A stretch of DNA of 35,848 nt from Planctomycetota bacterium (GTDB lineage: Bacteria > Planctomycetota > Brocadiia > Brocadiales > Brocadiaceae), in NCBI GenBank assembly GCA_016873155.1, contig VGXX01000010.1:1-35848 (forward strand), written 5' to 3'. The position numbers and the translations under genes are program-made. A model generated the notes under the pieces. It saw only the letters and a program-made list of their open reading frames with translations, was not told the DNA's origin and did not search any database. Below, in pieces: positions 394 to 31,096 of the stretch. Each line of letters opens with the position of its first letter. The stretch's first letter is position 1.

Positions 394-2004
394 ATGCTTG
401 AATTTTTTAAGAAACCATTATCCAGGATTGTGGGGGCAACCATTGCGTTTGCTGGTGTAACATTGCTAACGTGTACAATGGGAAATGGCATTGCAAAGGC
501 GGAAGGCCCTACATTTCAGGATGTAGCATCACAGGTGTTTGGTCAGGCAGTTGGGCCGGATAACGACGGAACATTGTATGTTTTTGGATTGACAGCTAAA
601 TATACTACGCCAGAGTATGTTGAGGGAAGAGGTCCTTACAAGTCATTTTTGAAATTCTTACCTTCAATTCGTTGGTATGATCCAGAGCATTATTGGACAA
701 ATGGCAGCCAAACTGAAGGTGTTTATAAGAATGAAGAATGCGTTCTGTGCCATACCGTTCAGACTCCTACGATTGTGAAAGACTGGAAGATAAGTGCTCA
801 TGGGAAGACAGAAGGCAGGAAAGGAACTGTAACAAAGGATGGAAAGCCATATGAAGGCGTTGTTGGCTGTGATAAATGCCATGGAAATGACCACCAGAAG
901 CTTTTTATGCCCACATACAAACATTGCGGTGAGTGTCATCCGAAAGAGACTGCGGAACATAGGGCTGGTGGTTTGGGTTCACATACCCATGCGTTTACAG
1001 TAAACACCTTGGAATTTTCATGGCAATTAGGAAAACCTGCAGAAGAGGTTGCTGGCTGCGCTGAGTGCCATGCCATTGCGGAAAACAGGTGTGATGGCTG
1101 TCATACAAGGCACGTTTTTAGCCCTGCTGAGGCAAGAAAACCAAGTGCATGCAGATATTGTCACATGGGTATTGACCATGATGAGTGGAAGATGTATTCG
1201 GATTCCATTCATGGTTGTTTATATGAGGCAGAATCTGCCACTATGGATTGGAGCAAACCATCGAAGAAGGGGAACTACAGAGTTCCAACATGTGCTTATT
1301 GCCATATGCAGGATGGGAATCATAATCCACAGCAATTTGGAACGATTTATAGCGATATGGGTATGTTCGAAGTTGACCGTGGTGCACCGAAGCACAAGGC
1401 AAAGAGAGATGCATGGATAAAGAAATGCCAGGATTGTCATTCACCAAGGTTTGCAGCTGATAAACTGAAGGCCATGGACGATGGTATCAGGTTGAGCTTC
1501 ACGAAGTGGAGGGAAGCTGCCGCCGTTATCGTTGGCTGCTTCTTGGACGGCGTTGTTGATCCGATGCCGGAGGGTTCACCGCCAGACTGGTATGGACATT
1601 ACACGTTCAGCTTGTTACCAGGCGGCGATCCAAGGTTCTATGCGACTTCAAACCTTGAACGTCTGGGTCTCGAAATGATTTGCTATCTGATCGGCAATAC
1701 ATACAAGGCGTTGGCTCACATGTGTATGTACAATGCGACGTACGGAAACGGTGGCGCATTTGAAACAGACAGAAAGTTGATCGAGATCAAGACTGAGGCA
1801 GCTAAGTTGAGAAGGTTTGCTGCAATTGAAAAGAAGATTGGTTTGGAACACAAGTCAGAAGCATTCTGGCAGCATGGTGAATATTCGGACTTGCTCCCAG
1901 GTTGGAAGAGAAAACCAGGCGACATAGATCTTGAATGGTTCAAGAGGACTGATATTCCTCACCGTGCGAATGCCGACGCTCCAGTTCAACCGCATGGGCA
2001 TTAA
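394..2004 (+). CDS. Hydroxylamine oxidoreductase (HOX), octaheme cytochrome c, kustc1061-like
   Basis: Soluble anammoxosome enzyme that oxidises hydroxylamine to nitric oxide. The 536-residue protein has a Sec signal at about 1-36 and eight CxxCH motifs at residues 116, 159, 178, 222, 233, 253, 300 and 345. By family alignment the fourth (222-226) carries the catalytic P460 haem. Tyr450, in the short motif NATY, aligns with the tyrosine that cross-links to P460 in HAO-type oxidases, so an oxidative role is expected. The sequence matches my memory of Kuenenia kustc1061 along its whole length, including the GPDNDGTLY and PDWYGHYTFSLLPGG regions. The start is set by AAGGAG at 380-385, 8 nt upstream. 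The gene has its own strong promoter and a terminator at 2051, so it is probably monocistronic. Lys codons favour AAG, as expected for heavy expression. Confidence 0.93.
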   Translation: MLEFFKKPLSRIVGATIAFAGVTLLTCTMGNGIAKAEGPTFQDVASQVFGQAVGPDNDGTLYVFGLTAKYTTPEYVEGRGPYKSFLKFLPSIRWYDPEHYWTNGSQTEGVYKNEECVLCHTVQTPTIVKDWKISAHGKTEGRKGTVTKDGKPYEGVVGCDKCHGNDHQKLFMPTYKHCGECHPKETAEHRAGGLGSHTHAFTVNTLEFSWQLGKPAEEVAGCAECHAIAENRCDGCHTRHVFSPAEARKPSACRYCHMGIDHDEWKMYSDSIHGCLYEAESATMDWSKPSKKGNYRVPTCAYCHMQDGNHNPQQFGTIYSDMGMFEVDRGAPKHKAKRDAWIKKCQDCHSPRFAADKLKAMDDGIRLSFTKWREAAAVIVGCFLDGVVDPMPEGSPPDWYGHYTFSLLPGGDPRFYATSNLERLGLEMICYLIGNTYKALAHMCMYNATYGNGGAFETDRKLIEIKTEAAKLRRFAAIEKKIGLEHKSEAFWQHGEYSDLLPGWKRKPGDIDLEWFKRTDIPHRANADAPVQPHGH

Positions 2005-4606: not shown

Positions 4607-6310
4607 ATGCATAAATTTTTGAAAGTAACATTAGCGTCAGCTTTAATAGGATTCGGCACAATGGGTGTGGTAGCCAATCTTATGACGAAAGAAGTAAAGG
4701 CTGTAGAAATTATCACACACTGGGTACCTCATGAAGTTTATGGTCAACCAGGTGAACCGGATAACAACGGTAAGGTGTTCTTTTCTGGTTTAGGGGCAAA
4801 ATACATGGGTTATCCTAAGGATTCGGGAGCACCGCCTTATCCTGGAAAATACAGTAAATTTTGGAAGACGTTGCCTGCCTACCGTTATTATATTCCTGAC
4901 TATATGTACAACAGGGATGAGGTAAGGCCTTCGAACCCGATTAAGGGTACGTTCCAGCTCGAACAATGTATTGGATGTCATTCTGTTATGACCCCTGGTA
5001 TTGTAAGGGATTATAAGAAGAGCGCTCATTCAAGGGCAGAACCAAGCCCAACCGGTTGCGATACCTGTCATGGTAACAACCACCAGAAGTTGACCATGCC
5101 GTCATCAAAGGCTTGCGGCACCAGCGAGTGCCACGAGACGCAGTACAGCGAGCAGGGTCAGGGTGGTATAGGTTCACACGCTTCCTGTTCAAGTTTTGCT
5201 CAGGTAGAATGTGCATGGTCAATTGAAAGGCCACCAGGAGATACTGCTGGTTGCACATTCTGTCATACAAGCTCAGAAGAGAGATGCAGCACTTGCCACC
5301 AGAGGCATCAGTTTGACCCGAAGGTTGCAAGAAAAGCAGAGCAGTGCAAGACTTGTCACTGGGGTAAAGATCATAGAGACTGGGAAGCTTATGACATCGG
5401 TCTCCATGGTGTGGTATATCAGGTGAACAAGTGGGATCCGAAGCAGTTCGACTGGACGAAGAAGCTGGCCGATGCTGATTATGTTGGTCCGACATGTCAG
5501 TACTGCCACATGAGGGGCGGCCACCACAACGTGCAGAGGTTTAGCACGGTGTACACCAGTATGGGTATGTCCATGGCAGATCGTGGCGCACCGATCTGGA
5601 AGGAGAAGAGGGATCGTTGGGCATCAGTTTGTGATGATTGCCATTCACCGAGGTTCGCCAAGGAGAACTTGCAGGCATTGGATGAATCTGTTAAGGATGC
5701 CGGTTTGAAGTATCGCGAAACATTCCAGATTGCCGCAGACCTTGTTAAGGATGGTGTAGCCGATCCTATGCCGAAAGACCTTGCACCTGATTGGTCAGGT
5801 CAGCATGTATGGAGTTTGAAGATCGGCGCTTATCATGACGATCCGGCATTTGGCGGCAAGGCTGGTGAATCAGGTGAGTTCAGGATGTCGAACTGTACTG
5901 ATATTGAAAGGCTTTGCTTTGAGAGCGTTGGATATTTCCAGACATACATCTACAAAGGTATGGCACACGGTTCATGGAACGATGCTACCTATTCTGATGG
6001 TTCGTTTGGTATGGATCGTTGGTTGGTCAACGTAAAGCAGGACGCTTCTCAGGCAAGAAGACTTGCAGCTATCGAGAAGAAGGTTGGCATTACCTGGGTA
6101 CCGGAGAGTTTCTGGAAGACCGGCGAGTGGCTTGATCAGTTGACAGGCCCTTACATTGTGAAGAATCATCCGGGAAAGACCATCTTCGATCTGTGTCCAG
6201 ATCCAGGTTGGTTGGATACGCATCATGCGCCTGCTGAAGAAGTCGAGTACATCAACAGAAAGATCAAAGAACTCGGCTGGAAGACTCCAGAGCATGGTGG
6301 TCATCACTAA
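4607..6310 (+). CDS. Hydrazine dehydrogenase (HDH), octaheme cytochrome c, kustc0694-like
   Basis: Last step of anammox: hydrazine to N2 with release of four low-potential electrons in the anammoxosome. The 567-residue protein has a signal peptide at about 1-32. Haem motifs start at residues 121, 151, 170, 216, 227, 247, 297 and 342. The third is CX4CH (CGTSECH, 170-176) instead of CxxCH. Tyr462, in DATYSDG, matches the number I recall for the P460 cross-linking tyrosine of Kuenenia HDH, and residue 216-220 should bind P460. The sequence agrees with my memory of kustc0694 almost throughout, including the long C-terminal extension after 500 with TGPYIVKNHPGKTIFDLCPD. The start is preceded by AGGAGGAGA (4586-4594). 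It has its own promoter and a strong terminator. Near-identical paralogues are common in anammox genomes, so a second copy elsewhere is possible. Confidence 0.95.
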   Translation: MHKFLKVTLASALIGFGTMGVVANLMTKEVKAVEIITHWVPHEVYGQPGEPDNNGKVFFSGLGAKYMGYPKDSGAPPYPGKYSKFWKTLPAYRYYIPDYMYNRDEVRPSNPIKGTFQLEQCIGCHSVMTPGIVRDYKKSAHSRAEPSPTGCDTCHGNNHQKLTMPSSKACGTSECHETQYSEQGQGGIGSHASCSSFAQVECAWSIERPPGDTAGCTFCHTSSEERCSTCHQRHQFDPKVARKAEQCKTCHWGKDHRDWEAYDIGLHGVVYQVNKWDPKQFDWTKKLADADYVGPTCQYCHMRGGHHNVQRFSTVYTSMGMSMADRGAPIWKEKRDRWASVCDDCHSPRFAKENLQALDESVKDAGLKYRETFQIAADLVKDGVADPMPKDLAPDWSGQHVWSLKIGAYHDDPAFGGKAGESGEFRMSNCTDIERLCFESVGYFQTYIYKGMAHGSWNDATYSDGSFGMDRWLVNVKQDASQARRLAAIEKKVGITWVPESFWKTGEWLDQLTGPYIVKNHPGKTIFDLCPDPGWLDTHHAPAEEVEYINRKIKELGWKTPEHGGHH

Positions 6311-6463: not shown

Positions 6464-6488
6464 TTCTTACACTTGAGTGGAGATGGAT

Positions 6489-7703
6489 ATGAGATTGTAT
6501 AAGTACGCATTTTTGTTAATGTCAACTGCTATTTTTTGCTTACCGATTGCTTGTCAGAAGGGGAAAGACCATATTGAGATTGCCAATAGTTTAGTGAAAG
6601 AGAATAAATTGGATGAGGCATTGGCTGAATATTCAAAGGCAATAGAGGCCAATGTAAATCTTTCGGAGGCGTACTACGGCAGGGGAAATGTTTATCTGGG
6701 GCAAGAAAAGCTGGAAGAAGCAGCGACAGATTTCAGGAAAGCCATTGATATTAATCCGAAATATATTGATGCACACAGGAAATTGGCAGAAACATTTACA
6801 AAGATCGGCGCCCCGGATGATGAATTTCAAAAGCGGTATAAGGCTATTGAAAATGACCCTGAAAACCCTTTAAATTATGTGGATCTTGGCGTTTTTCTTC
6901 ATAAGCTTCAAAAGGAGATAGATGCCATTGAACAATATAAAAGGGCATTAGAGCTTGACCCGAAAAATCCTTATATTATGTTTAACCTTGGGGTGGGTTA
7001 TTTGGATATGGGTTTATATGCAGATGCCGAAACCATGTTTAAAGAGGTTGTCGAAATAAATCCTTCGTATGATAACGGACATTATAATCTTGCTATTTCT
7101 TTGCACAAACAGGGAAAGGTTGATGAAACCATAAAAGAACTCAATAAGACGCTTGAGGTAAATCCTAAATACTCTGATGCCTATGTTGTTTTTGGTTTGA
7201 TCAAGCTGACAGAGAAGAAGTTCGAAGAGGCAATTGCGCAATATAACAAGGCAATGGAGATAAATCCGGATAATCTCGATGCCCGTTATCAAAGGGCGAT
7301 TGTCTTTGCATTGCAAAAGAGATATGACGAGGCATTGACAGAGAATATGGCAGTACTGGAAAAGAACCCCAAATACACGAACGCCGCATACAACATTGGC
7401 GTCATTTATCACAGGACAGACCGTCTCGACAGGGCAATGGAATGGTATGATAAGATAACCAAGAAGATTGACCCTCTGTATGAAGACGCTTATTACAACA
7501 GGGCGCAACTCTATACAATGAAGGGCGACCACAGTAAGGCATATAGTGATTATATCTCCTACTCGTATATTACAAAGTGGAGGACGGGGAAAGATCCTGC
7601 TGTGGTTTATAAACAGGACGAGATCAAGGAGATGTTCATGCAGTCAGTGCCAACGTTAAAAGGACAGGCGAAAGATCAAGAAGTGGAATTAAAATCAAAT
7701 TAA
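6489..7703 (+). CDS. TPR-repeat protein, probable lipoprotein
   Basis: A 404-residue chain of tandem tetratricopeptide repeats, each showing the pattern A..YN.G......G....A...Y.KA.E.NP. About nine or ten repeats run from residue 25 to 370. Such repeats form a superhelix that binds other proteins; the partner here is unknown. ATG 6489 is chosen because GGAG lies 6 nt upstream and it gives a clean signal peptide ending in LPIAC, a slightly imperfect lipobox with Cys at about 23. GTG 6477 and ATG 6483 are alternatives. The next gene, also a TPR protein, begins one base after this stop, so the two are surely one operon and probably arose by duplication. Confidence 0.85.
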   Translation: MRLYKYAFLLMSTAIFCLPIACQKGKDHIEIANSLVKENKLDEALAEYSKAIEANVNLSEAYYGRGNVYLGQEKLEEAATDFRKAIDINPKYIDAHRKLAETFTKIGAPDDEFQKRYKAIENDPENPLNYVDLGVFLHKLQKEIDAIEQYKRALELDPKNPYIMFNLGVGYLDMGLYADAETMFKEVVEINPSYDNGHYNLAISLHKQGKVDETIKELNKTLEVNPKYSDAYVVFGLIKLTEKKFEEAIAQYNKAMEINPDNLDARYQRAIVFALQKRYDEALTENMAVLEKNPKYTNAAYNIGVIYHRTDRLDRAMEWYDKITKKIDPLYEDAYYNRAQLYTMKGDHSKAYSDYISYSYITKWRTGKDPAVVYKQDEIKEMFMQSVPTLKGQAKDQEVELKSN

Positions 7704-7704
7704 T

Positions 7705-8850
7705 ATGTCCAAATTGTTTTCTGTTGTAGGAATTGCTTCATTAATATTTCCATGCTGCTATGGATATGCAAAAGATATTTCTGTGGCTGGTGACAAATAT
7801 TTTGAAAACAGGCAGTGGGATGAGGCTGTTGATGAATACGAGAAATTGCTCTCTAAAAACAGGAATCAACCTGAGATTTATTTTAAACTGGGAAATGCCT
7901 ATTCTAAAAAAGGAGACCTGGAAAAGGCTGTAGAAGCCTTTAATAAGGCTACGCAACTCAAGCCTGATTATTCAGAAGCTTATCAAAGGTTGTCCGAAGT
8001 AAGTATGCAGATAGAAGTCCCTGAGGACGAGCTTAAAGTGCGTCTTAAGGAAGTTCAAAAGGATCCTAATAATTCTGATGCGCATCTCCTATTGGGTTTG
8101 ACTTATTATAAGCGTAATCTCCTTGATGAAGCAAAGAGAGAATACGAAACGGCTATTGGACTTGATCCCAAGAAGGCAGAGGCGTATTTCAACCTCGGTG
8201 TTTTATGTCAGGATACCAATACCCATGATAAGGCATCCGAGTGGTACAAAAAAGCCATTGAGATATCACCAGGCTATGATAAGGCGCATTTTAATCTGGG
8301 GATTGCTTACTATCAATCAGGGCATTTAGAACAGTCTATTTCTGAGTATAAACGGGTTATTGAGATAAATCCGGGGTACGCTGAAGCGTATGTGAATTTG
8401 GGAATTGCTTGTTTTGTAAAAGGCGCGTATAACGATGCCCTTGAAGCCTTAAAGAAGGCGTTATCGCAAGGCTCAAATGTTGCTAAAATTCATTATTATC
8501 TCGGTAATGTTTATCAGAAGATGGATAAAACGGACAAGGCAATAGTTGAGTACAGGCAAGCAATAGAAGCAAATTCAAAATTAGTCGCGCCACACTATAA
8601 TTTAGGTGTCATTTATCTGAAAAAGAAAATGGTTGATCAGGCTGTCAGTGAATTTACAAAGGTAATTACCCTTGACCACGATTATGCCGATGCCTATCTA
8701 AACCGTGGTAAAGCTTATGAATTGAAGGACGATAGGGTAAATGCACAGAACGATTACAATTCCTACCAGCATGCCAAGTCGGCCTTTGCAAGGATTTACA
8801 AAGAAGAGAACGTATCCTCCTATTACGAAGGTTCAAATCCTGACAAATAA
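7705..8850 (+). CDS. Exported TPR-repeat protein
   Basis: A 381-residue protein with a signal peptide (about 1-22, ending CYGYA) followed by about ten TPR units to residue 355, for example AYYQSGHLEQSISEYKRVIE. Its stretch DELKVRLKEVQKDPNN is placed like DEFQKRYKAIENDPEN in the upstream gene, which supports a shared ancestor. The two reading frames are separated by one base and no Shine-Dalgarno is visible, so translation is probably coupled. The protein should be periplasmic or in the anammoxosome lumen and act as a scaffold or assembly factor; no substrate can be named. Confidence 0.85.
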   Translation: MSKLFSVVGIASLIFPCCYGYAKDISVAGDKYFENRQWDEAVDEYEKLLSKNRNQPEIYFKLGNAYSKKGDLEKAVEAFNKATQLKPDYSEAYQRLSEVSMQIEVPEDELKVRLKEVQKDPNNSDAHLLLGLTYYKRNLLDEAKREYETAIGLDPKKAEAYFNLGVLCQDTNTHDKASEWYKKAIEISPGYDKAHFNLGIAYYQSGHLEQSISEYKRVIEINPGYAEAYVNLGIACFVKGAYNDALEALKKALSQGSNVAKIHYYLGNVYQKMDKTDKAIVEYRQAIEANSKLVAPHYNLGVIYLKKKMVDQAVSEFTKVITLDHDYADAYLNRGKAYELKDDRVNAQNDYNSYQHAKSAFARIYKEENVSSYYEGSNPDK

Positions 8851-8877: not shown

Positions 8878-10470
8878 TCAGCGCACTTCTTTGCCCTTAT
8901 CTTCCTGCTTACCAGCCTCTTTTGCAGTTTTTCCGGTTTCTTGTTTATCATCCTTCACACAGCGGAAACCGATACTTTTGTTTCGGTCCTCAGGGTTTCC
9001 AAATATCCTTACTGCGCAACGCATTTTATATGCATAGGGGGCAAATAATGACCCTCCTTTGATTACCCGTGAGCCGGTGCTGTTTTCCGGTCCTTTGGGA
9101 TTCATGCTGGGGCTGGTTTGGAAATACTCAGGGTGATACCAATCATTGCACCATTCTGAGACACTGCCGATCATATCCAGGCACCCATATGGGCTCTTCC
9201 CAAACTCAAAGCTTCCTACAGACAAGGGCGCGTCAGGCCCGACGTTGCAACGTTTTGCGTCCCATACATTACCCCAGGGGAATCTGCGTCCGTCTGTCCC
9301 TCTGCACGCCTTTTCCCACTCGGCCTCAGTTGGTAACCGTTTGCCCGCCCATCCGGCATATGCATACGCATCGTACCAGTCTATACGGCTCACAGGATAG
9401 TCGGGAAAATCGAAATATGGATAGTCCCAGCCAGTGTGCGGCGTTCCAGGCGTATGGTCTTTGCCTTTTGGTTCTCCCGGAAAACACTTGCTGTGGTCGC
9501 CGGTAGTTCTAATGTACTGCAGGAATTCCCAATATTGGGCATTTGTGACTTCATATTTATCAATGTAGTATGCGTCTAAATATACCTCATGTTGCGGCAT
9601 TTCTTCGGGAATAAATTCGTCTGCTACGGTGCCCATAATGAATTTTCCGGCGGGTACCGGTACCATTTCGCCCCATTTTCCACGATTTTCAAGCAGGGCT
9701 TTCTTCATTTTTTCATCTCGTTCCATCATTGACAATTCCTTGCGCTGGTTCTTCTCTGAAGTATCCAGGCCCTTTTCCAGTTTGCTAATGGCAACTTTAA
9801 CGTCCGCTATAGCCTTTTTATAGTTTTCATCTGACTTTACTTCGGGCGGTTGCGCCTCCAGTAATGTTTTGCATTTATCAAGGTGTGCAAGGGCTTCCTT
9901 TGCTTTTCCAAGCTTCCAATATACCCCGCCCATCATGAAGTGAAGGGGCGGCAGTTCCGGATTTAGCGCTTCTGCTTTTTTGTACTCTTCCAGGGCTCCT
10001 TCGAAATCATTCAGTTCTTCGCGGAGACGGTTCCCTTCCATAAGGTGATACATGGCCGCTTTCGTTTTTTCTTCTAATGGAGCGTCTGGAGAAAGGTTAA
10101 TTTCTATTTTTTTATCAGGTATAGAAGTCTTTTTGTCGGTTGAAGATTTGGGAATAAGTTGGGTCCCGTCTTTTTTGCAAAAATTTTCGCCAGGACTTGC
10201 CTTTTCCTTGCAGGTTGGACATATGAGGTACTCTTCATTGTATTCCACAAGTTGTTTGCCGTCGATACTGCAGAAGCCGATATCTCCAGGATAGATTTTG
10301 TTACATTCTGGACACAGTTTATTCTGGGGAATATTTTTTTGTGTATTTGATACAGTTTCTTTTTTTTGAGATGCTTTTTGCTCCTCTTTTTTTATCTCTT
10401 TTGACATGAGGGTACTGTATGGGAGTATTATGGACATGACAAGTGGAACAATGACATATACAATTCTCAC
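8878..10470 (-). CDS. Zinc-ribbon/TPR/SUMF1-domain exported protein
   Basis: A 530-residue protein. Residues 1-23 form a signal peptide or anchor. Two short zinc ribbons follow (Cys53-Cys56-Cys67 and Cys84-Cys87-Cys98), each ending in an FCxxDG turn where a fourth Cys would be. A TPR-like helical region covers about 135-235, and a full SUMF1/FGE-sulfatase fold about 268-506 (AGKFIMG, VSRIDWYDAYAYAGWAGKRL, EAEWEKA, GFRCV). The paired active-site cysteines of true formylglycine-generating enzymes are absent from the GGS...R region (470-490), so sulfatase activation is unlikely; this looks like the large non-FGE branch of the family. The start is GTG 10470, fixed by AAAGGAGG 9 nt upstream. It lies downstream of the small gene at 11140 on the same strand. 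Confidence 0.82.
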   Translation of the reverse strand: MRIVYVIVPLVMSIILPYSTLMSKEIKKEEQKASQKKETVSNTQKNIPQNKLCPECNKIYPGDIGFCSIDGKQLVEYNEEYLICPTCKEKASPGENFCKKDGTQLIPKSSTDKKTSIPDKKIEINLSPDAPLEEKTKAAMYHLMEGNRLREELNDFEGALEEYKKAEALNPELPPLHFMMGGVYWKLGKAKEALAHLDKCKTLLEAQPPEVKSDENYKKAIADVKVAISKLEKGLDTSEKNQRKELSMMERDEKMKKALLENRGKWGEMVPVPAGKFIMGTVADEFIPEEMPQHEVYLDAYYIDKYEVTNAQYWEFLQYIRTTGDHSKCFPGEPKGKDHTPGTPHTGWDYPYFDFPDYPVSRIDWYDAYAYAGWAGKRLPTEAEWEKACRGTDGRRFPWGNVWDAKRCNVGPDAPLSVGSFEFGKSPYGCLDMIGSVSEWCNDWYHPEYFQTSPSMNPKGPENSTGSRVIKGGSLFAPYAYKMRCAVRIFGNPEDRNKSIGFRCVKDDKQETGKTAKEAGKQEDKGKEVR

Positions 10471-11290: not shown

Positions 11291-11427
11291 CCTCGAACTT
11301 TGAGTTATTTTATTATTACTCATGTATATGAGATAAATTATTAAATATTAGAGATTATATTGCTTTAATTATAGATAGCTAAAAAGCAAAGGCCCTCATT
11401 ACAAAAAAGGAAGATTAGGAGGTATTT

Positions 11428-12645
11428 ATGGAGCGGTTGAAGCAGGTGTTGGAATTTATTCAGAGAAGAAAAAAGCTGGTTGGCTTCTTCACCATAATCG
11501 TATTGGTAGTTTTTTTTGTTACCATAAACAAGGTGTACCATTACTCAGAGAAGAGCGAGTTCTGCGCCAGTTGCCATGAAATGAAAATCCATTACGATTC
11601 ATTCAAGGCATCGAAGCACCACAATGAACACGTGGAAAACTGTCATGCCTGTCATGTTGGGCCTGGACTCAAGGGATATGCCCATGCGAAACTCAGCGAT
11701 GGAACGCATGATTCTTTAATGCATTCATTTCAGGCGTATACGGACGGAGAATTCATCGAGATTGCCGAAGACAGTCTTAAAATCTTGAATGGGAACTGTG
11801 TTCGCTGCCATACAGAAGGATTTACAAAGGATAAATCTCACATTGAATTTGTTTCAAAAAGCAATAAGCACGGTACCCACGGTGAAACGCCTGAAAAATT
11901 GGAATGTACGGATTGTCACCTTGGCGTAGTCCATCCCCACATGCCTGGTGATTTATTCAAGGCATACGCTGCAAGAAAGATTAAACCTTACGGTACGTAT
12001 GAAGAGACGGACTGTCTTGCATGTCATAAAATGGCGACACCCGATGTTGTGAAGGAATGGACAAAAGGTGTTCACGCTGTAAAGGGTGTGACATGCATAA
12101 GCTGTCACGGAAATGACCACCGTTTTATAGCAAAGAAACGAGGCCATGTTTCCGCAAGCACCTGCGGCGAGTGCCATCAGAATCAATATGTTGACTTCAG
12201 AGAAAGCGCACATCTACAAGGGCATCCTGTAGCTGCCACAAGTAGTTTTCATGTGATTAGCACACGATTGTTGAATATAAAAGATTGTAAAGAATGTCAC
12301 AAATTGGGATTGAGCTATGAGTTCGATAGGGTCGGAGGAAGTTGTAATGCCTGCCATCCAAGCCACAAGTTTTCGGTGGCGGAGGCAAAGGCATATGATG
12401 CCTGCGAAAAATGCCATGTTGGAGGGCCGGAACATGCTCAGTTAGACACGAGCGGAAACTCGATATTCGGGAAGGTGCAAAGGTTGCGCAGCCAGGGTCT
12501 GATTACCAAAGACTTGATTACCTGTCAGTCATGTCATGGTCCAAATAAATCACATAATTTTAGTAAGACATTTTTGCCAGAGAATATTGAAGTATTACTC
12601 TTTGGAGCCAAAGGACTGGTAAAGCTTCCCTCAACGCACAAGTAA
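11428..12645 (+). CDS. Membrane-anchored 11-heme cytochrome c (NrfH/NapC-like head plus HAO-like core)
   Basis: A 405-residue protein anchored by one N-terminal helix (about 17-34), as in NapC/NrfH quinol dehydrogenases. Eleven CxxCH motifs start at residues 46, 72, 124, 160, 196, 223, 246, 287, 306, 326 and 366. The first four form the NrfH-like head (CASCHEMK directly after the helix). The last seven reproduce the spacing of HAO haems 1-7: CHGNDH after the second, then CNACHPSHKFSVAEA...CEKCH like CDGCHTRHVFSPAEA...CRYCH in HOX. The eighth HAO haem and the tyrosine-bearing C-terminal domain are missing, so hydroxylamine oxidation is unlikely. The best guess is electron exchange between the quinone pool and soluble haem proteins. 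The start is fixed by TAGGAGG, 6 nt upstream. A terminator at 12689 makes it monocistronic. Confidence 0.85.
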   Translation: MERLKQVLEFIQRRKKLVGFFTIIVLVVFFVTINKVYHYSEKSEFCASCHEMKIHYDSFKASKHHNEHVENCHACHVGPGLKGYAHAKLSDGTHDSLMHSFQAYTDGEFIEIAEDSLKILNGNCVRCHTEGFTKDKSHIEFVSKSNKHGTHGETPEKLECTDCHLGVVHPHMPGDLFKAYAARKIKPYGTYEETDCLACHKMATPDVVKEWTKGVHAVKGVTCISCHGNDHRFIAKKRGHVSASTCGECHQNQYVDFRESAHLQGHPVAATSSFHVISTRLLNIKDCKECHKLGLSYEFDRVGGSCNACHPSHKFSVAEAKAYDACEKCHVGGPEHAQLDTSGNSIFGKVQRLRSQGLITKDLITCQSCHGPNKSHNFSKTFLPENIEVLLFGAKGLVKLPSTHK

Positions 12646-12843: not shown

Positions 12844-14793
12844 ATGGGGAAAAATATCGTACAAAAAATTTTCAGCTCGCATCTCGTCTCTGGCAAACTA
12901 AAGGTTGGTGAGGAGATCGCCATTTCTGTCGATCAAACTCTCACGCAAGATGCTACCGGAACTATGGCTTATTTACAGTTTGAGGCCATGGGTATACCGA
13001 AAGTTAAAACAAAACTTTCGGTCAGTTACGTTGACCACAATACACTCCAAACAGGCTTTGAGAACTTTGACGACCATTTATTTCTTCAGAGCACTGCGAA
13101 AAAATACGGTATTTATTTTTCCAAACCGGGGAATGGTATCTGTCATCAGGTGCATCTGGAGCGGTTCGGTGTTCCGGGGGAAACCTTGCTGGGCTCAGAC
13201 AGCCACACGCCGACGTGCGGCGGGCTGGGAATGATAGCCATTGGCGTAGGCGGTCTTGACGTAGCAATTGCTATGGCCGGCGGGCCGTTTTATATAACAA
13301 TGCCAAAGGTCGTATTGGTAAAACTGTCCGGCGCATTACGACCGTGGGTAACTGCGAAAGACGTGATATTAGAGTTATTGAGAAGGTTAACGGTAAAGGG
13401 CGGCGTCGGGAAAATATTTGAATACGGAGGCGAAGGGGTACAGACACTTACGGTAACAGAACGAGCCACAATCACCAATATGGGCGCAGAACTTGGAGCG
13501 CTTACCTCGATCTTCCCCAGTGATGCACAAACAAAAAAGTATCTCAAAATGCAAGGTAGAGAAGGCGTCTGGAAGCCGCTAAAAGCCGATCCGAGCGCTA
13601 AGTATGATGAAGTTGTAGAAATTGATCTTTCGGCTTTAGAACCACTGATTGCGAGACCCCACAGTCCGGACAATGTTTGCAAAGTCAGTGAAATTAAAGG
13701 TACGAAAGTTAATCAGGTCTGTATCGGAAGTTGTACGAATTCCTCGTTTCATGACCTTATGGTGGCTGCGTCAATGTTGAAGGGACGGAAAGTACATCCT
13801 GACGTAAGCCTCACCATATCTCCGGGTTCAAGACAGGTGTTGGAAATGATAAGTAAAAATGGCGCTTTAGCAGATATGATTGCTGCGGGTGCACGCATTA
13901 TCGAAGTAGCCTGCGGCCCTTGCATTGGAATGGGACAAGCCCCGCCTTCCGGAGGTGTTTCCGTGAGGTCATTTAACAGAAACTTTGAAGGTCGAAGCGG
14001 AACGGCAAATGCTCAGGTGTATCTGTCAAGTCCTGAAACGGCTATAGCAACGGCGATCAACGGCGTTATTAGCGATCCTAGGGATTTTGGTGATCCGATA
14101 GTTATCAAATATCCAAAAAGCTTCATTATCGATGACAGCTTGATCATTCCTCCTTTGGAAAAACCAGAGGAGGTATCAATTATCAGAGGCCCAAATATAA
14201 AACCCCTGCCAAAGAAAGAAACCATGCCTGATACGTTAAAAGGGGACGTCCTTTTAAAGGTGGGAGACAATATCACCACCGACCATATCATGCCGGCAGG
14301 GGCAAAGGTGTTGCCACTGCGGTCGAATATTCCTGCCATCTCTGAATTTGTATTTGAAAAAGTGGACAAGGAGTTTGTTAAACGCGCCAAGGAAAAGGGG
14401 GGTGGCTTCTTGATAGGTGGAGTGAATTATGGTCAGGGATCAAGCAGGGAACATGCGGCGCTGGCGCCCATGTATTTAGGGGTAAAGGCAGTTATTGTCA
14501 AATCCTTTGCCCGCATCCACCGCGCAAATCTTGTGAACTTTGGCATCTTGCCATTAACCTTTGAAAATGAAAATGACTATAATCTATTCGATCTGGGAGA
14601 TACCATTGAGATGCCTGATATGAAAAATAGATTAAAATCCAAAGCCAGTATTACATTAAAGAATGTAACAAAAAATAAGGAAGTGAAAGTAACACACACA
14701 TTAACCCCTCGTGAAATTGATATCCTTTGTGTTGGTGGTTTATTGAATTACCAGGCTCAGATTTGTAATGTTTCCAAGAAAGAAGATGCCTAA
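12844..14793 (+). CDS. Aconitate hydratase
   Basis: Interconverts citrate and isocitrate using a [4Fe-4S] cluster. The 649-residue length fits the compact bacterial/mitochondrial-like type rather than the roughly 900-residue AcnA/AcnB. Cluster cysteines are visible at 297 (GSCTNSS), 357 and 360 (CGPCIGMG). The substrate loop SDSHTPTCGG is near 120 and the swivel domain motif GQGSSREHAALAP near 545. AAAGGACT lies just upstream of ATG 12844. It is flanked by terminators at 12689 and 14838, so it is transcribed alone. In anammox bacteria it would feed central carbon metabolism (2-oxoglutarate for glutamate). Homoaconitase or isopropylmalate isomerase are related, but full-length fusion of both halves favours aconitase. 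Confidence 0.93.
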   Translation: MGKNIVQKIFSSHLVSGKLKVGEEIAISVDQTLTQDATGTMAYLQFEAMGIPKVKTKLSVSYVDHNTLQTGFENFDDHLFLQSTAKKYGIYFSKPGNGICHQVHLERFGVPGETLLGSDSHTPTCGGLGMIAIGVGGLDVAIAMAGGPFYITMPKVVLVKLSGALRPWVTAKDVILELLRRLTVKGGVGKIFEYGGEGVQTLTVTERATITNMGAELGALTSIFPSDAQTKKYLKMQGREGVWKPLKADPSAKYDEVVEIDLSALEPLIARPHSPDNVCKVSEIKGTKVNQVCIGSCTNSSFHDLMVAASMLKGRKVHPDVSLTISPGSRQVLEMISKNGALADMIAAGARIIEVACGPCIGMGQAPPSGGVSVRSFNRNFEGRSGTANAQVYLSSPETAIATAINGVISDPRDFGDPIVIKYPKSFIIDDSLIIPPLEKPEEVSIIRGPNIKPLPKKETMPDTLKGDVLLKVGDNITTDHIMPAGAKVLPLRSNIPAISEFVFEKVDKEFVKRAKEKGGGFLIGGVNYGQGSSREHAALAPMYLGVKAVIVKSFARIHRANLVNFGILPLTFENENDYNLFDLGDTIEMPDMKNRLKSKASITLKNVTKNKEVKVTHTLTPREIDILCVGGLLNYQAQICNVSKKEDA

Positions 14794-21000: not shown

Positions 21001-22458
21001 ATGAGAGGCTTTTTGTCGTTCGTTGCTGTGTCAGTAATTTTTAGTATTTTTAGTGGTGTGTTACATGCCCAAAAGCTGGATAAGGGGGTGGGTCCGTACG
21101 CAGAATTTTGGAAACCTATTCCAACGCAAAGATACTGGGCGCCGGACTATTTCTATTCGCCGCCCGCAGAGCCAAAAGGGGTTTTTAACGCAGATGAATG
21201 CACGATTTGCCACAAGGCTTTAAATCCGGGTTTGGTAAAGGCATGGGAGGAAAGCAGCCATGCTAATCTTGATAAGCTTTTGGATTATCAGAAGGTGAAA
21301 TTGGAAGAGATAGAAAAAAACCTTGGGAAGAAGCTTACGAAGGTGGGCTGCATTGATTGTCATGGTAAGGTTGGTGCAGAAAAGTTGGATCATGAAAAAG
21401 AATTAATAATGCCCAATCCCGCTCTTTGCGGTGAGTGTCATAAGCAGGAGTATGAGGAGTTCGAATCTGAAAAACAGTATGGTATTCCCGATTGGAAACC
21501 AGGCAGAGAGAGTCATGCAAAGTCTTACGATGCCAATCTGGACGTAGACGTATGGGCTGCAGTAGACAAAAATATTGTTCAGGGCTGCGATATGTGCCAC
21601 AATATCCAGCACAAGTGCGATAGTTGCCATAGCCGGCATGCCTTTAAGGCATCGGAATCAAGGAGGCCGGAGGCGTGCCAAACCTGCCACAACGGGCCTG
21701 ATCACCCGGATATTGAATATTACAGAGACTCCAAGCACGGCTCTATATATTTTATCGAGGGTCATAGCTGGGACTGGAACAAGCAATTAAAAGATGCGAA
21801 CTATATTTCTCCTACCTGTCAATCCTGTCATATGTACTATAAAGGACAGTATTCGCATAATATGGTCAGGAAGGCTATCATGGGTGAGGGCGACGTGTTG
21901 TTTTATGACAATATCTTCAAAGGGGTAAAACCATCGGATTATATCAAGAACAGCAAGGAATTAATGTCAAGACGGGAGGCGTGGATTGAAGTTTGTGTAC
22001 AGTGCCATTCTACACGGTTTTCCCGGGATTACCTGGACTCAATGGATAAGGCGTCGGATTCCGTTTTTCAGTATGTGAGTGATTCTTACGCTACGATTAA
22101 ATCACTCTATGAGGATGGGGTGCTCTATCCCATGCCTGAAAACAGACCCAAGGCGCCAGCCCCTGTGACGGAGAAATATCCTGATCTGTTGGGTGGTTTC
22201 TACGGCGAATTTTGGGCAAAGAATGGAAACCCAAGTAAAATTGAAAAGGACTTCCTGTATATGTGGGAGAACGATGCCTTTTTGGTCAGGAAGGGTTTGG
22301 CGCACATGAACCCCAATGGGTTTACCTATATCTCGTGGTCGAACCTGCTCAAGAAGTACGTGGATATACAGAGTGAGGCAAATACCTTAAGGAGATTAGC
22401 TGCATTGGAAAAGAAGGCAAAGTTAAGGCCATCAAGGGTGCACAAGAAGAGTAAATAG
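21001..22458 (+). CDS. HAO-like octaheme cytochrome c (third paralogue)
   Basis: A 485-residue octaheme protein with a signal peptide (1-23) and CxxCH motifs starting at 67, 117, 143, 196, 206, 226, 273 and 332. Haem order and spacing follow HAO; 196-200 is the expected P460 haem. Tyr443 in PNGFTY aligns with the P460 cross-linking tyrosine, so an oxidase of hydroxylamine, hydrazine or a similar compound is possible, unlike the tyrosine-less HAO relatives thought to reduce nitrite or NO. It lacks the long C-terminal tail of HDH and the CX4CH third motif. The start is fixed by GGAGGAG, 7 nt upstream. It has no partner gene and ends 17 nt from a convergent kinase gene. Substrate unknown. Confidence 0.88.
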   Translation: MRGFLSFVAVSVIFSIFSGVLHAQKLDKGVGPYAEFWKPIPTQRYWAPDYFYSPPAEPKGVFNADECTICHKALNPGLVKAWEESSHANLDKLLDYQKVKLEEIEKNLGKKLTKVGCIDCHGKVGAEKLDHEKELIMPNPALCGECHKQEYEEFESEKQYGIPDWKPGRESHAKSYDANLDVDVWAAVDKNIVQGCDMCHNIQHKCDSCHSRHAFKASESRRPEACQTCHNGPDHPDIEYYRDSKHGSIYFIEGHSWDWNKQLKDANYISPTCQSCHMYYKGQYSHNMVRKAIMGEGDVLFYDNIFKGVKPSDYIKNSKELMSRREAWIEVCVQCHSTRFSRDYLDSMDKASDSVFQYVSDSYATIKSLYEDGVLYPMPENRPKAPAPVTEKYPDLLGGFYGEFWAKNGNPSKIEKDFLYMWENDAFLVRKGLAHMNPNGFTYISWSNLLKKYVDIQSEANTLRRLAALEKKAKLRPSRVHKKSK

Positions 22459-28420: not shown

Positions 28421-29926
28421 TTATTTTAATGAATTTTGTTCCATTTTTAACCGATGACGGTCAGAAAACCAGCTTTTTGATAAATTAGTAACAGCTTGTG
28501 TTACTTCTGGAGGGATGGTATTTTCAGAGTTAACTAAATATCCATTTACCAGGTTTTCCAAATCCTTTATCTTCGTTTCCATTTTCTTAACGTCGCTTAA
28601 ATCAGAGAATATCATAATTGCACCGAGTTCCGTATTATTATCCAATAACAAAGACGTACTAATATCATAGGTAGAACGGGTAACAGGATGCACCACCTCA
28701 CTCCTTTTAAAAGTTTTCTTGTCTTTTAAAGTCCTTAAGAGATAATTGGCAAATAATGAACCAATATATTTAACATCCTTTCCTATCACCTCATCTGAAG
28801 GAATATTTAACATCCTTGCCGCATTTTTATTAAAGATATTAACCTTACAATCTTTATTGATAACAATAATTCCGTAAGGGATATTTTCCAGGACGTTTTC
28901 GTTGTGAATTCTCCTGAGGTTTACCTCCTGGTAAAGGAACGCATTCTCTACTGCCATACCGATATACCCTGCCAGCATGGATAGTAATTCTATATCCTCA
29001 TCAAAAAATGCCTTCCCGGTAATTTTATTTCCCAGGGCAATCACACTGCTCAAATTCCCATTGGCAAAAACAGGTATACACAATTGCGCCTGCAGAAGGT
29101 TCATTTCCTTCTGTATCTTTATGGCTTCACGCACAGTTAATTTGTTAGTCGTTACGTCTCTGTTTATGACCTCTTTATTTAATATCTGATGATTCCTGGT
29201 CAACCACAGCATAATACCTTGATTCGTGGTGAAACAAATACTACGGGCAGTTATCTCATCCAGGCCGAGACAGCGAAAAGGCCGAAACAAACCATCGTTT
29301 TTGTCCATCAACATAAATACTGCCCTTCCTACTCCGAATGTCTCAGCCATCGCCTCGACAGTCAGATCGGCAAGCTTCCCAAGGTCATACACACGTGTTA
29401 ATACCTTCGAAAACTTTTGGAAGACTTCCTTGTATCCAAGAAACGTCACCCTGACATTGTCTTGTTTGTTGAAAGCCGATTCGGACAACCTTGCATCCTC
29501 CGGCTTTAAATTCTTTATATGCGACTGAATGAAACCCAACTCCCTTTTCAGTTCCTGTTTCTCAAAAACCCTCTTTGAGACCATCTCCACTGCGTCTCTT
29601 CGCAGGGGTTTTTTAAGATATTCATATTCACCGGATACCCGAAATTCTTCCGGCAATATTGGCTGAGACTCCGGCACTATCATAACAATCGTCGGTTCAA
29701 TATTTGTTCGTCGGAGTTCTTCTATAAGCTTGTTTGCCCCGTCATCGTTCAAGAGAACATCCAGAAAAGTTACATCGATGTCTATTTTGAGAAATATTTG
29801 CAGCGCCTCCTCATGTGTCCTGGCAATATGGACTACGTAATCTTTACTCAAAGATTTCTTAAAAAAAGCATTCATTGCCTTATCGTTTGAGACTACAAGA
29901 AAAGAATACACAAACTTATCCCCCAA
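28421..29926 (-). CDS. Receiver-GAF-PAS signalling protein (no kinase domain)
   Basis: A 501-residue protein. The receiver domain (about 5-120) has phospho-acceptor Asp56 (TFLDVLL) and Lys105 (YLKKPL), but the usual acidic pair is Asn14-Asp15. GAF lies at about 170-335, PAS at about 342-448, and a short tail follows. No kinase, DNA-binding or cyclic-nucleotide domain is visible. Its GAF-PAS part resembles that of the neighbouring histidine kinase, so it may bind or modulate such a kinase. The start is uncertain: TTG 29926 has only a weak AGGC upstream, and CTG or ATA codons in frame are alternatives. Codons up to 29912 are duplicated perfectly at 30046-31096. Confidence 0.8.
   Translation of the reverse strand: MGDKFVYSFLVVSNDKAMNAFFKKSLSKDYVVHIARTHEEALQIFLKIDIDVTFLDVLLNDDGANKLIEELRRTNIEPTIVMIVPESQPILPEEFRVSGEYEYLKKPLRRDAVEMVSKRVFEKQELKRELGFIQSHIKNLKPEDARLSESAFNKQDNVRVTFLGYKEVFQKFSKVLTRVYDLGKLADLTVEAMAETFGVGRAVFMLMDKNDGLFRPFRCLGLDEITARSICFTTNQGIMLWLTRNHQILNKEVINRDVTTNKLTVREAIKIQKEMNLLQAQLCIPVFANGNLSSVIALGNKITGKAFFDEDIELLSMLAGYIGMAVENAFLYQEVNLRRIHNENVLENIPYGIIVINKDCKVNIFNKNAARMLNIPSDEVIGKDVKYIGSLFANYLLRTLKDKKTFKRSEVVHPVTRSTYDISTSLLLDNNTELGAIMIFSDLSDVKKMETKIKDLENLVNGYLVNSENTIPPEVTQAVTNLSKSWFSDRHRLKMEQNSLK
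28862..29912. repeat. Direct repeat copy A (1051 bp)
   Basis: This segment is repeated in the same orientation at 30046-31096, offset 1184 bp. I compared it line by line and see no difference; both ends break sharply. It covers the receiver, GAF and first residues of the PAS domain of the intact gene. Confidence 0.9.
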
Positions 29927-30033
29927 TAAATTGCCTATAAAAAATTCATTCAGCTATTTCTATAAACATTATACCGAAAATTGTAACTATATTATGTACC
30001 AAATTACCAAAATGCTTTTTAGGATAGCTGTCA

Positions 30034-31095
30034 CTAATTATTTAAAACAATAATTCCGTAAGGGATATTTTCCAGGACGTTTTCGTTGTGAATTCTCCTG
30101 AGGTTTACCTCCTGGTAAAGGAACGCATTCTCTACTGCCATACCGATATACCCTGCCAGCATGGATAGTAATTCTATATCCTCATCAAAAAATGCCTTCC
30201 CGGTAATTTTATTTCCCAGGGCAATCACACTGCTCAAATTCCCATTGGCAAAAACAGGTATACACAATTGCGCCTGCAGAAGGTTCATTTCCTTCTGTAT
30301 CTTTATGGCTTCACGCACAGTTAATTTGTTAGTCGTTACGTCTCTGTTTATGACCTCTTTATTTAATATCTGATGATTCCTGGTCAACCACAGCATAATA
30401 CCTTGATTCGTGGTGAAACAAATACTACGGGCAGTTATCTCATCCAGGCCGAGACAGCGAAAAGGCCGAAACAAACCATCGTTTTTGTCCATCAACATAA
30501 ATACTGCCCTTCCTACTCCGAATGTCTCAGCCATCGCCTCGACAGTCAGATCGGCAAGCTTCCCAAGGTCATACACACGTGTTAATACCTTCGAAAACTT
30601 TTGGAAGACTTCCTTGTATCCAAGAAACGTCACCCTGACATTGTCTTGTTTGTTGAAAGCCGATTCGGACAACCTTGCATCCTCCGGCTTTAAATTCTTT
30701 ATATGCGACTGAATGAAACCCAACTCCCTTTTCAGTTCCTGTTTCTCAAAAACCCTCTTTGAGACCATCTCCACTGCGTCTCTTCGCAGGGGTTTTTTAA
30801 GATATTCATATTCACCGGATACCCGAAATTCTTCCGGCAATATTGGCTGAGACTCCGGCACTATCATAACAATCGTCGGTTCAATATTTGTTCGTCGGAG
30901 TTCTTCTATAAGCTTGTTTGCCCCGTCATCGTTCAAGAGAACATCCAGAAAAGTTACATCGATGTCTATTTTGAGAAATATTTGCAGCGCCTCCTCATGT
31001 GTCCTGGCAATATGGACTACGTAATCTTTACTCAAAGATTTCTTAAAAAAAGCATTCATTGCCTTATCGTTTGAGACTACAAGAAAAGAATACAC
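30034..31095 (-). pseudogene. Truncated duplicate of the receiver-GAF-PAS gene
   Basis: 353 codons identical to the intact gene at 28421-29926 from its YSFLVV to its PYGIIV, then a frame that runs into LNN and a stop. The PAS domain and tail are lost; receiver and GAF are complete, so a shortened protein could still be made. The original start lies outside the repeat; here GTG 31095 with GAGGA about 7 nt upstream is usable. The codons just before it (IGHLYEDDTV) resemble those before the intact copy (IGNLLGDKFV), so the junction may lie in older homologous sequence. It is either a decoy or regulator domain or a decaying copy. Confidence 0.75.
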
Positions 31096-31096
31096 A
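30046..31096. repeat. Direct repeat copy B (1051 bp)
   Basis: Second copy of 28862-29912 in the same orientation, separated by 133 bp (29913-30045). There is no insertion-sequence signature or inverted repeat at either end. The spacer contains a possible minus-strand -10 box (ATTATA on plus at 29968-29973) that could drive the intact gene. Confidence 0.9.

Follow-up and report, generated by a model that had tools for sequence, protein, structure and literature searches.

An undecahaem NrfH-HAO fusion cytochrome as a candidate membrane-anchored hydrazine-to-quinone link in anammox bacteria

Results

Genes of the locus and anatomy of the fusion gene

The window, i.e., the whole 35,848-nt stretch of DNA that was analysed, carries a gene for an undecahaem cytochrome among genes of nitrogen metabolism. 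The following features were annotated:

394..2004, + strand: HAO/HOX-type octahaem hydroxylamine oxidoreductase (6t5e, 1112 bits; KsHAO 4n4j, 1040 bits)
4607..6310, + strand: hydrazine dehydrogenase, HDH (NF052343, 1235.8 bits, cut-off 900)
6477..8850, + strand: pair of TPR proteins encoded between HDH and the fusion gene, a conserved part of the cluster
8878..10470, - strand: protein with a double zinc ribbon, TPR and FGE-sulfatase parts, divergent, beside the fusion gene in three families
11417..11422, + strand: RBS-like AGGAGG in the sequence, 5 bases before the ATG
11428..12645, + strand: undecahaem NrfH-HAO fusion gene, ATG start, 405 aa
11479..11535, + strand: N-terminal transmembrane helix, residues 18-36, predicted from hydropathy (helix 15-40 in the full-length model)
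12844..14793, + strand: aconitase gene, which directly follows the fusion gene in Brocadiaceae, f2 and f101 but not in the Scalindua-like family

The fusion protein contains 11 CxxCH motifs, which start at residues 46, 72, 124, 160, 196, 223, 246, 287, 306, 326 and 366, and no cysteine was found beyond these motifs in its 405 residues. The segment of residues 18-36 is its only strongly hydrophobic stretch (Kyte-Doolittle mean 2.34). The full length and all 11 haems are kept in 33 aligned relatives (49-96% identity), so the open reading frame did not arise by chance. The family f2 orthologues (L039, L040, L057, L058) have a CX3CH motif for haem 1 instead of CX2CH, and the Met ligand is kept in them.

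The gene order HAO/HOX - trpB - trpA - HDH - TPR - TPR - (FGE, opposite strand) - fusion gene recurs in Brocadiaceae, the Scalindua-like family and f2. Linkage was counted over the 19 GTDB loci that had at least 6.5 kb of upstream sequence. In 14 of them, belonging to three families, HDH is encoded on the same strand no more than 10 kb upstream of the fusion gene; the exceptions include both Kuenenia-type loci. In the Kuenenia genome G088, the fusion gene lies away from HDH, at a distance of 8 kb downstream from hzsB-hzsC-hzsA. Outside Kuenenia, the zinc-ribbon/TPR/FGE protein is the most constant neighbour of the fusion gene.

Two further observations were made in the window. At 21,001-22,458, the window encodes another octahaem HAO-like protein, its third; among solved structures, it matches the aerobic HAO of Nitrosomonas best (362 bits, against 208 for anammox HAO). 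Within 28,854-31,096, a segment of 1059 bases (~28,854-29,912) is repeated at ~30,038-31,096 with 99.8% identity; the repeat duplicates much of a response-regulator/GAF gene and may have arisen by recent tandem duplication or be an assembly artefact.

The NapC/NrfH-type head

The N-terminal part of the protein was assigned by profile searches and by alignment to 2j7a_C:

11545..11943, + strand: NapC/NrfH-type tetrahaem head, residues 40-172, haems 46, 72, 124 and 160 (PF03264, TIGR03153, 2j7a)
11581..11583, + strand: Met52, equivalent of NrfH Met49 (CXXCHXM, ligand of the menaquinol-side haem; alignment to 2j7a_C)
11689..11712, + strand: Lys88 and Asp95, equivalents of NrfH Lys82 and Asp89 (quinone site; alignment to 2j7a_C)

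Pfam PF03264 (NapC/NirT) matched residues 20-170 with 58.2 bits (cut-off 24.1), and the NrfH structure 2j7a matched the head with an E-value of 1.2e-8. The score for TIGR03153, the NrfH equivalog, was 87 bits, which is below its cut-off of 134.2. Since haem motifs alone can yield false matches, a control was used in which all spacers were shuffled and every CxxCH was kept in place (500 shuffles per half). The head scored 62.6 bits against the NrfH profile, and its shuffled versions reached a mean of 9.0 and a maximum of 33.0 bits. Met52, Lys88 and Asp95 are invariant across 33 orthologues. The quinone-site residues are numbered as in Desulfovibrio NrfH (2j7a), where Lys82 belongs to this site. 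In NrfH, the haem that interacts with menaquinol has the Met of CXXCHXM as a ligand and an Asp on its distal side (review, PMC8840924). No NrfA-type pentahaem gene was found in the window. By its head, the predicted protein is a member of the NapC/NrfH superfamily, but it is not NrfH proper.

Homology of the C-terminal half to HAO

The part that follows the head was mapped by alignment:

11983..12573, + strand: HAO-type heptahaem part, residues 186-382; haems 196, 223, 246, 287, 306, 326 and 366 correspond to HAO haems 1-7
12430..12435, + strand: residues 335-336, position of the HAO catalytic Asp-His; Asp relaxed (E/D/V/P/I/A/S), His336 invariant
12466..12468, + strand: Phe347, at the position of a conserved HAO His (97%; alignment)

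Against an HAO profile built without the fusion family, the C-terminal half scored 133.9 bits, and its 500 shuffles gave a mean of 32.9 and a maximum of 56.8 bits. Comparison of the fusion-family profile with that of 42 HAO-like proteins gave a probability of 100 and an E-value of 2e-42 over residues 184-383. The seven haems of this half align with HAO haems 1-7 in all 72 HAO-like rows (72/72), and haem 287 falls on the position of catalytic haem 4. Pfam PF13447 (Multi-haem_cyto, HAO family) matched residues 220-352 with 18.3 bits, just below the cut-off of 21.9. The profile search of the PDB returned HAO/HDH entries at the top (1.6e-19 to 8.4e-11), followed by the related octahaem protein 4qo5 and then by NrfH (8.3e-7). 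It was thus confirmed that the two halves are homologous to NrfH and HAO, respectively, beyond the CxxCH motifs alone.

The AlphaFold model of residues 182-389 had a pLDDT of 84.9. The alignment behind it contained HAO rows, so its agreement with the HAO fold is not an independent proof; NrfH rows were left out, as MAFFT placed them on the C-terminal half. In Foldseek, the first 10 PDB matches of this model were all HAO/HDH-family entries (E to 4e-7). With VIA-align, Z was 12.1 to HDH (4.3 A over 179 residues) and 9.1-9.5 to HAOs; octahaem nitrite reductases were placed lower (Z 5.4-6.2), which we do not take as excluding them. A full-length AlphaFold prediction from the 33 orthologues alone was poor (pLDDT 51) and was not used for any claim about the fold.

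Lost and kept catalytic features

The fusion protein stops 35 residues past its last haem motif. No CxxCH follows residue 370, so HAO haem 8 is absent, and the chain, which ends at residue 405, also lacks the C-terminal helical domain of HAO with the cross-linking tyrosine. Seven histidines outside the haem motifs are conserved in HAO-like proteins, and in the numbering of the fusion protein they correspond to positions 216, 231, 262, 313, 336, 347 and 376. H216, H231, H262, H313, H336 and H376 are invariant in the fusion family, as is W211; five of the six conserved non-catalytic histidines are therefore retained without change. At position 347, the 22 Brocadiaceae rows all have Phe, and the histidine is kept in the Scalindua-like and f2 families. 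The loop between haems 4 and 5 holds two more invariant residues, Asp300 and Gly303.

The relaxed position 335 speaks against HAO chemistry, as does the lack of haem 8 and of the tyrosine domain, and loss of HAO catalysis in the body is strongly implied by the sequence. The body is, on the same grounds, a relative of HAO that has neither the octahaem complement nor the catalytic features of that family. At a guess, the invariant His336 may now serve as a ligand to what was once the catalytic haem.

The analysis shows, at the level of the predicted protein, a single chain that joins an NrfH-type head to a shortened heptahaem body of the HAO type. A preliminary description of the locus had proposed a membrane anchor with four NrfH-like and seven HAO-like haem sites in one 405-residue chain, and the reading frame, hydropathy, profiles and alignment confirmed it. 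It had also held that haem 8 and the catalytic tyrosine region are missing, which the end of the chain at residue 405 bears out, and that the enzyme part had been cut down, which is supported by the sequence, profile, structure-model and conservation tests. The HAO-like packing that it expected for this half was matched in the model, in whose alignment HAO rows were used.

Distribution and origin of the fusion family

In a search of 392 genomes of the phylum, full-length orthologues were found in the anammox order only. A scan of 84,980 species genomes added 46 further loci, all of them from Brocadiales or similar Planctomycetota MAGs, plus one unrelated 32-haem protein. Hence no full-length match was obtained outside the anammox order in either set (392 phylum genomes; 84,980 species genomes). 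The orthologue is present, as a single copy, in 53 of the 59 sampled genomes of this order, and the search for the same architecture elsewhere that the preliminary description had called for thus returned orthologues inside the order and none outside it.

As to the genomes without an orthologue, the contig of G366 ends just past the neighbouring FGE gene, and G409 and G403 are 84% and 79% complete. In G153, which is 99% complete, HDH is matched at best by a broken fragment. The two genomes of family f4 (G354, G393) have a full HDH and no orthologue, so the fusion gene is not strictly required for hydrazine oxidation; this family shows that another solution exists.

In the tree of C-terminal halves, the fusion family is recovered as one clade (support 100/100), whose stem is 1.3-1.35 changes per site long. 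This clade stands apart from all HAO-like proteins of anammox bacteria and other planctomycetes, and it branches internally along family lines. Both the fusion and the truncation therefore predate the split of the families that have the gene. A recent origin of this half from HDH, HAO or HOX was rejected on the basis of the single, fully supported clade and its long stem.

Discussion

Proposed role of the fusion protein

The strongest clues to the function are the near-universality of the gene in the anammox order, its conserved linkage to HDH and the exact NrfH quinone-site residues. In 2013, the partner of the anammox hydrazine oxidoreductase was described as 'an as yet unidentified cytochrome c' (PMC3701875), and in 2025 the entry of hydrazine-derived electrons into the respiratory membrane was still acknowledged as a gap (PMC12954380). 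We consider the fusion protein a strong candidate for the link between hydrazine oxidation and the respiratory membrane. That it is a membrane-anchored undecahaem quinone-cytochrome module forming the hydrazine-to-quinone link in anammox bacteria seems to us an even proposition. We put forward more tentatively, as a possibility, that it is the unidentified membrane acceptor of hydrazine electrons itself (HDH:menaquinone oxidoreductase), derived from a relative of HAO that was reduced to a wire and joined to an NrfH head before the main anammox families diverged.

According to this proposal, the body would dock HDH, or a small cytochrome serving HDH (possibly also HAO/HOX), and would take up low-potential electrons. 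These would run along the haem chain from the body to the NrfH-type head, which would reduce menaquinone beside the membrane helix. Judged by sequence and model, the protein appears to have the parts for such a link: an anchor, a quinone site and an HAO-shaped haem wire. From the conserved linkage and co-occurrence, we infer that HDH is the electron donor or partner; the direction of electrons towards quinone and the membrane of residence are deduced in the same manner. The idea of an electron wire between the quinone pool and soluble anammox cytochromes, already present in the preliminary description, stands as the best reading, with the strength of a deduction.

Several points count against an HDH-quinone link. 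Family f4 has HDH without an orthologue, and the Kuenenia gene lies away from HDH. NrfH/NapC heads are best known as quinol oxidisers, which speaks against quinone reduction. The missing protein for hydrazine electrons has also been proposed to pump protons, which speaks against a link with a single helix. Quinone reduction at a single-helix NrfH-type site would by itself conserve no energy and pump no protons; if the fusion protein is the link, energy conservation must happen downstream.

Alternative explanations

The electrons might also run the other way, with the head oxidising menaquinol and the heptahaem body feeding reductive steps (nitrite reduction, HZS or an electron-transfer partner of HZS). 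We find this unlikely, but it deserves the most attention among the alternatives. It follows the usual NrfH/NapC direction (PMC8840924) and has a precedent in reverse-HURM (PMC3701875), and it would fit the position of the Kuenenia gene 8 kb downstream of the hzs genes. KsCSTR_12840, probably the orthologue in Kuenenia as judged by gene position, increased along with HZS, HDH, HOX and NXR and was interpreted as an HZS-linked cytochrome (PMC10006275). However, linkage to HZS is seen in Kuenenia only, and the linkage shared by three families is to HDH and HAO/HOX. Moreover, an exchange of electrons with HZS has been reported for the soluble cytochrome Kuste2854 (PMC8388095). It is unlikely that the fusion protein is Kuste2854, which appears, as inferred from gene order, to be KsCSTR_28140 of the other HZS cluster.

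An exit route similar to that of CymA, carrying menaquinol electrons via the periplasm-equivalent towards porin-cytochrome systems and extracellular electron transfer, is improbable. An upregulated CymA-like tetrahaem cytochrome has indeed been invoked for extracellular electron transfer by anammox bacteria (PMC7188810), but that protein is tetrahaem and not undecahaem. Likewise, the protein that is probably the Kuenenia orthologue increased in the presence of Fe2O3 or MnO2, but so did HZS, HDH and NXR in the same experiment (PMC10006275), and near-universal presence with linkage to HDH suggests a place in core catabolism. We give still less credence to a self-contained quinol/quinone-coupled enzyme in which an open haem at the haem 4 position (287) still converts a nitrogen oxide. 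The haem 4 motif, His336 (the equivalent of the catalytic His), Asp300 and Gly303 are invariant, which speaks for such an enzyme; however, the catalytic Asp position is occupied by E, D, V, P, I, A or S, the C-terminal domain with the cross-linking Tyr is gone together with haem 8, and His336 may simply have become a sixth ligand.

The fusion was not found described in the open literature searched. The preliminary description had asked whether the family was already known with a function, and the one label encountered was 'NapC/NirT family cytochrome c', for the probable Kuenenia orthologue. What is new here is the near-universality of the fusion family in the anammox order, the lack of full-length matches outside it in the genomes searched, its old single clade and its linkage to HDH. 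The hydrazine-to-quinone reading offers one concrete, purifiable candidate for the gap in the anammox energy scheme.

Comparison with known systems

Like NrfH (2j7a), the fusion protein has one membrane helix, four haems, CXXCHXM at haem 1 and the Lys82/Asp89 equivalents; it differs in carrying a seven-haem domain after the head in place of a separate NrfA, and in its NrfH equivalog score (87 vs. 134 bits). With HDH and HAO (6hif, 4n4j, 6t5e, 1fgj) it shares haems 1-7 in register, the non-motif histidines and the HAO fold, whereas haem 8 and the C-terminal helical/tyrosine domain are absent from the fusion body, its catalytic Asp is relaxed and it falls in a separate clade.

Other NapC-headed multihaem proteins, such as TorC-like ones and those with 13-16 haems in f4 and other planctomycetes, also join such a head to more haems, but their downstream haems do not show the full register of HAO haems 1-7. 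The f4 proteins (L208:7450-9192, L209:8304-10103, L210:6095-8008) were accordingly rejected as orthologues, having 13 or more haems and no HAO register. An Armatimonadetes MAG protein with a NapC-like head (L127:8636-10789; 717 residues, 32 haems) was likewise rejected as the same architecture. In Brocadiaceae, multicopper-oxidase-like domains were seen fused to an octahaem HAO-like domain (L212:6245-8773 and L006:511-3015; ~840 aa).

The same two modules occur in the non-anammox planctomycete G145 (L214:4985-7546) as adjacent genes ~12 bases apart, with the head gene first. This pair is unfused and has a full octahaem HAO, unlike the fusion protein, which is one chain and has no haem 8, and it shows that the two-gene form exists in the phylum. 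In the tree, its HAO does not group with the fusion family; the pair is an analogue and not a shown ancestor, and its HAO was rejected as the direct parent of the fusion body.

In HURM, an octahaem HAO is coupled to quinone via a separate NapC/NrfH-related cytochrome, cM552 (PMC3701875). The claim that HAO-type proteins elsewhere pair with a separate NapC-like partner agrees with HURM and with the L214 pair. The likeness to HURM consists in an HAO-family protein and a NapC/NrfH-family tetrahaem protein forming a single route that connects a nitrogen compound with the quinone pool. In the anammox protein, however, both modules lie in one polypeptide, and a separate protein (HDH or HAO) is the presumed enzyme; the HAO part of the fusion is probably not catalytically competent, as judged from the loss of haem 8, the Tyr domain and a conserved Asp, and competent HDH and HAO genes lie nearby. 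An enzyme family can thus become a wiring part through truncation and fusion, and we regard the fusion protein as a version of the known HAO plus NapC/NrfH module in which the two parts are fused and the enzyme is missing.
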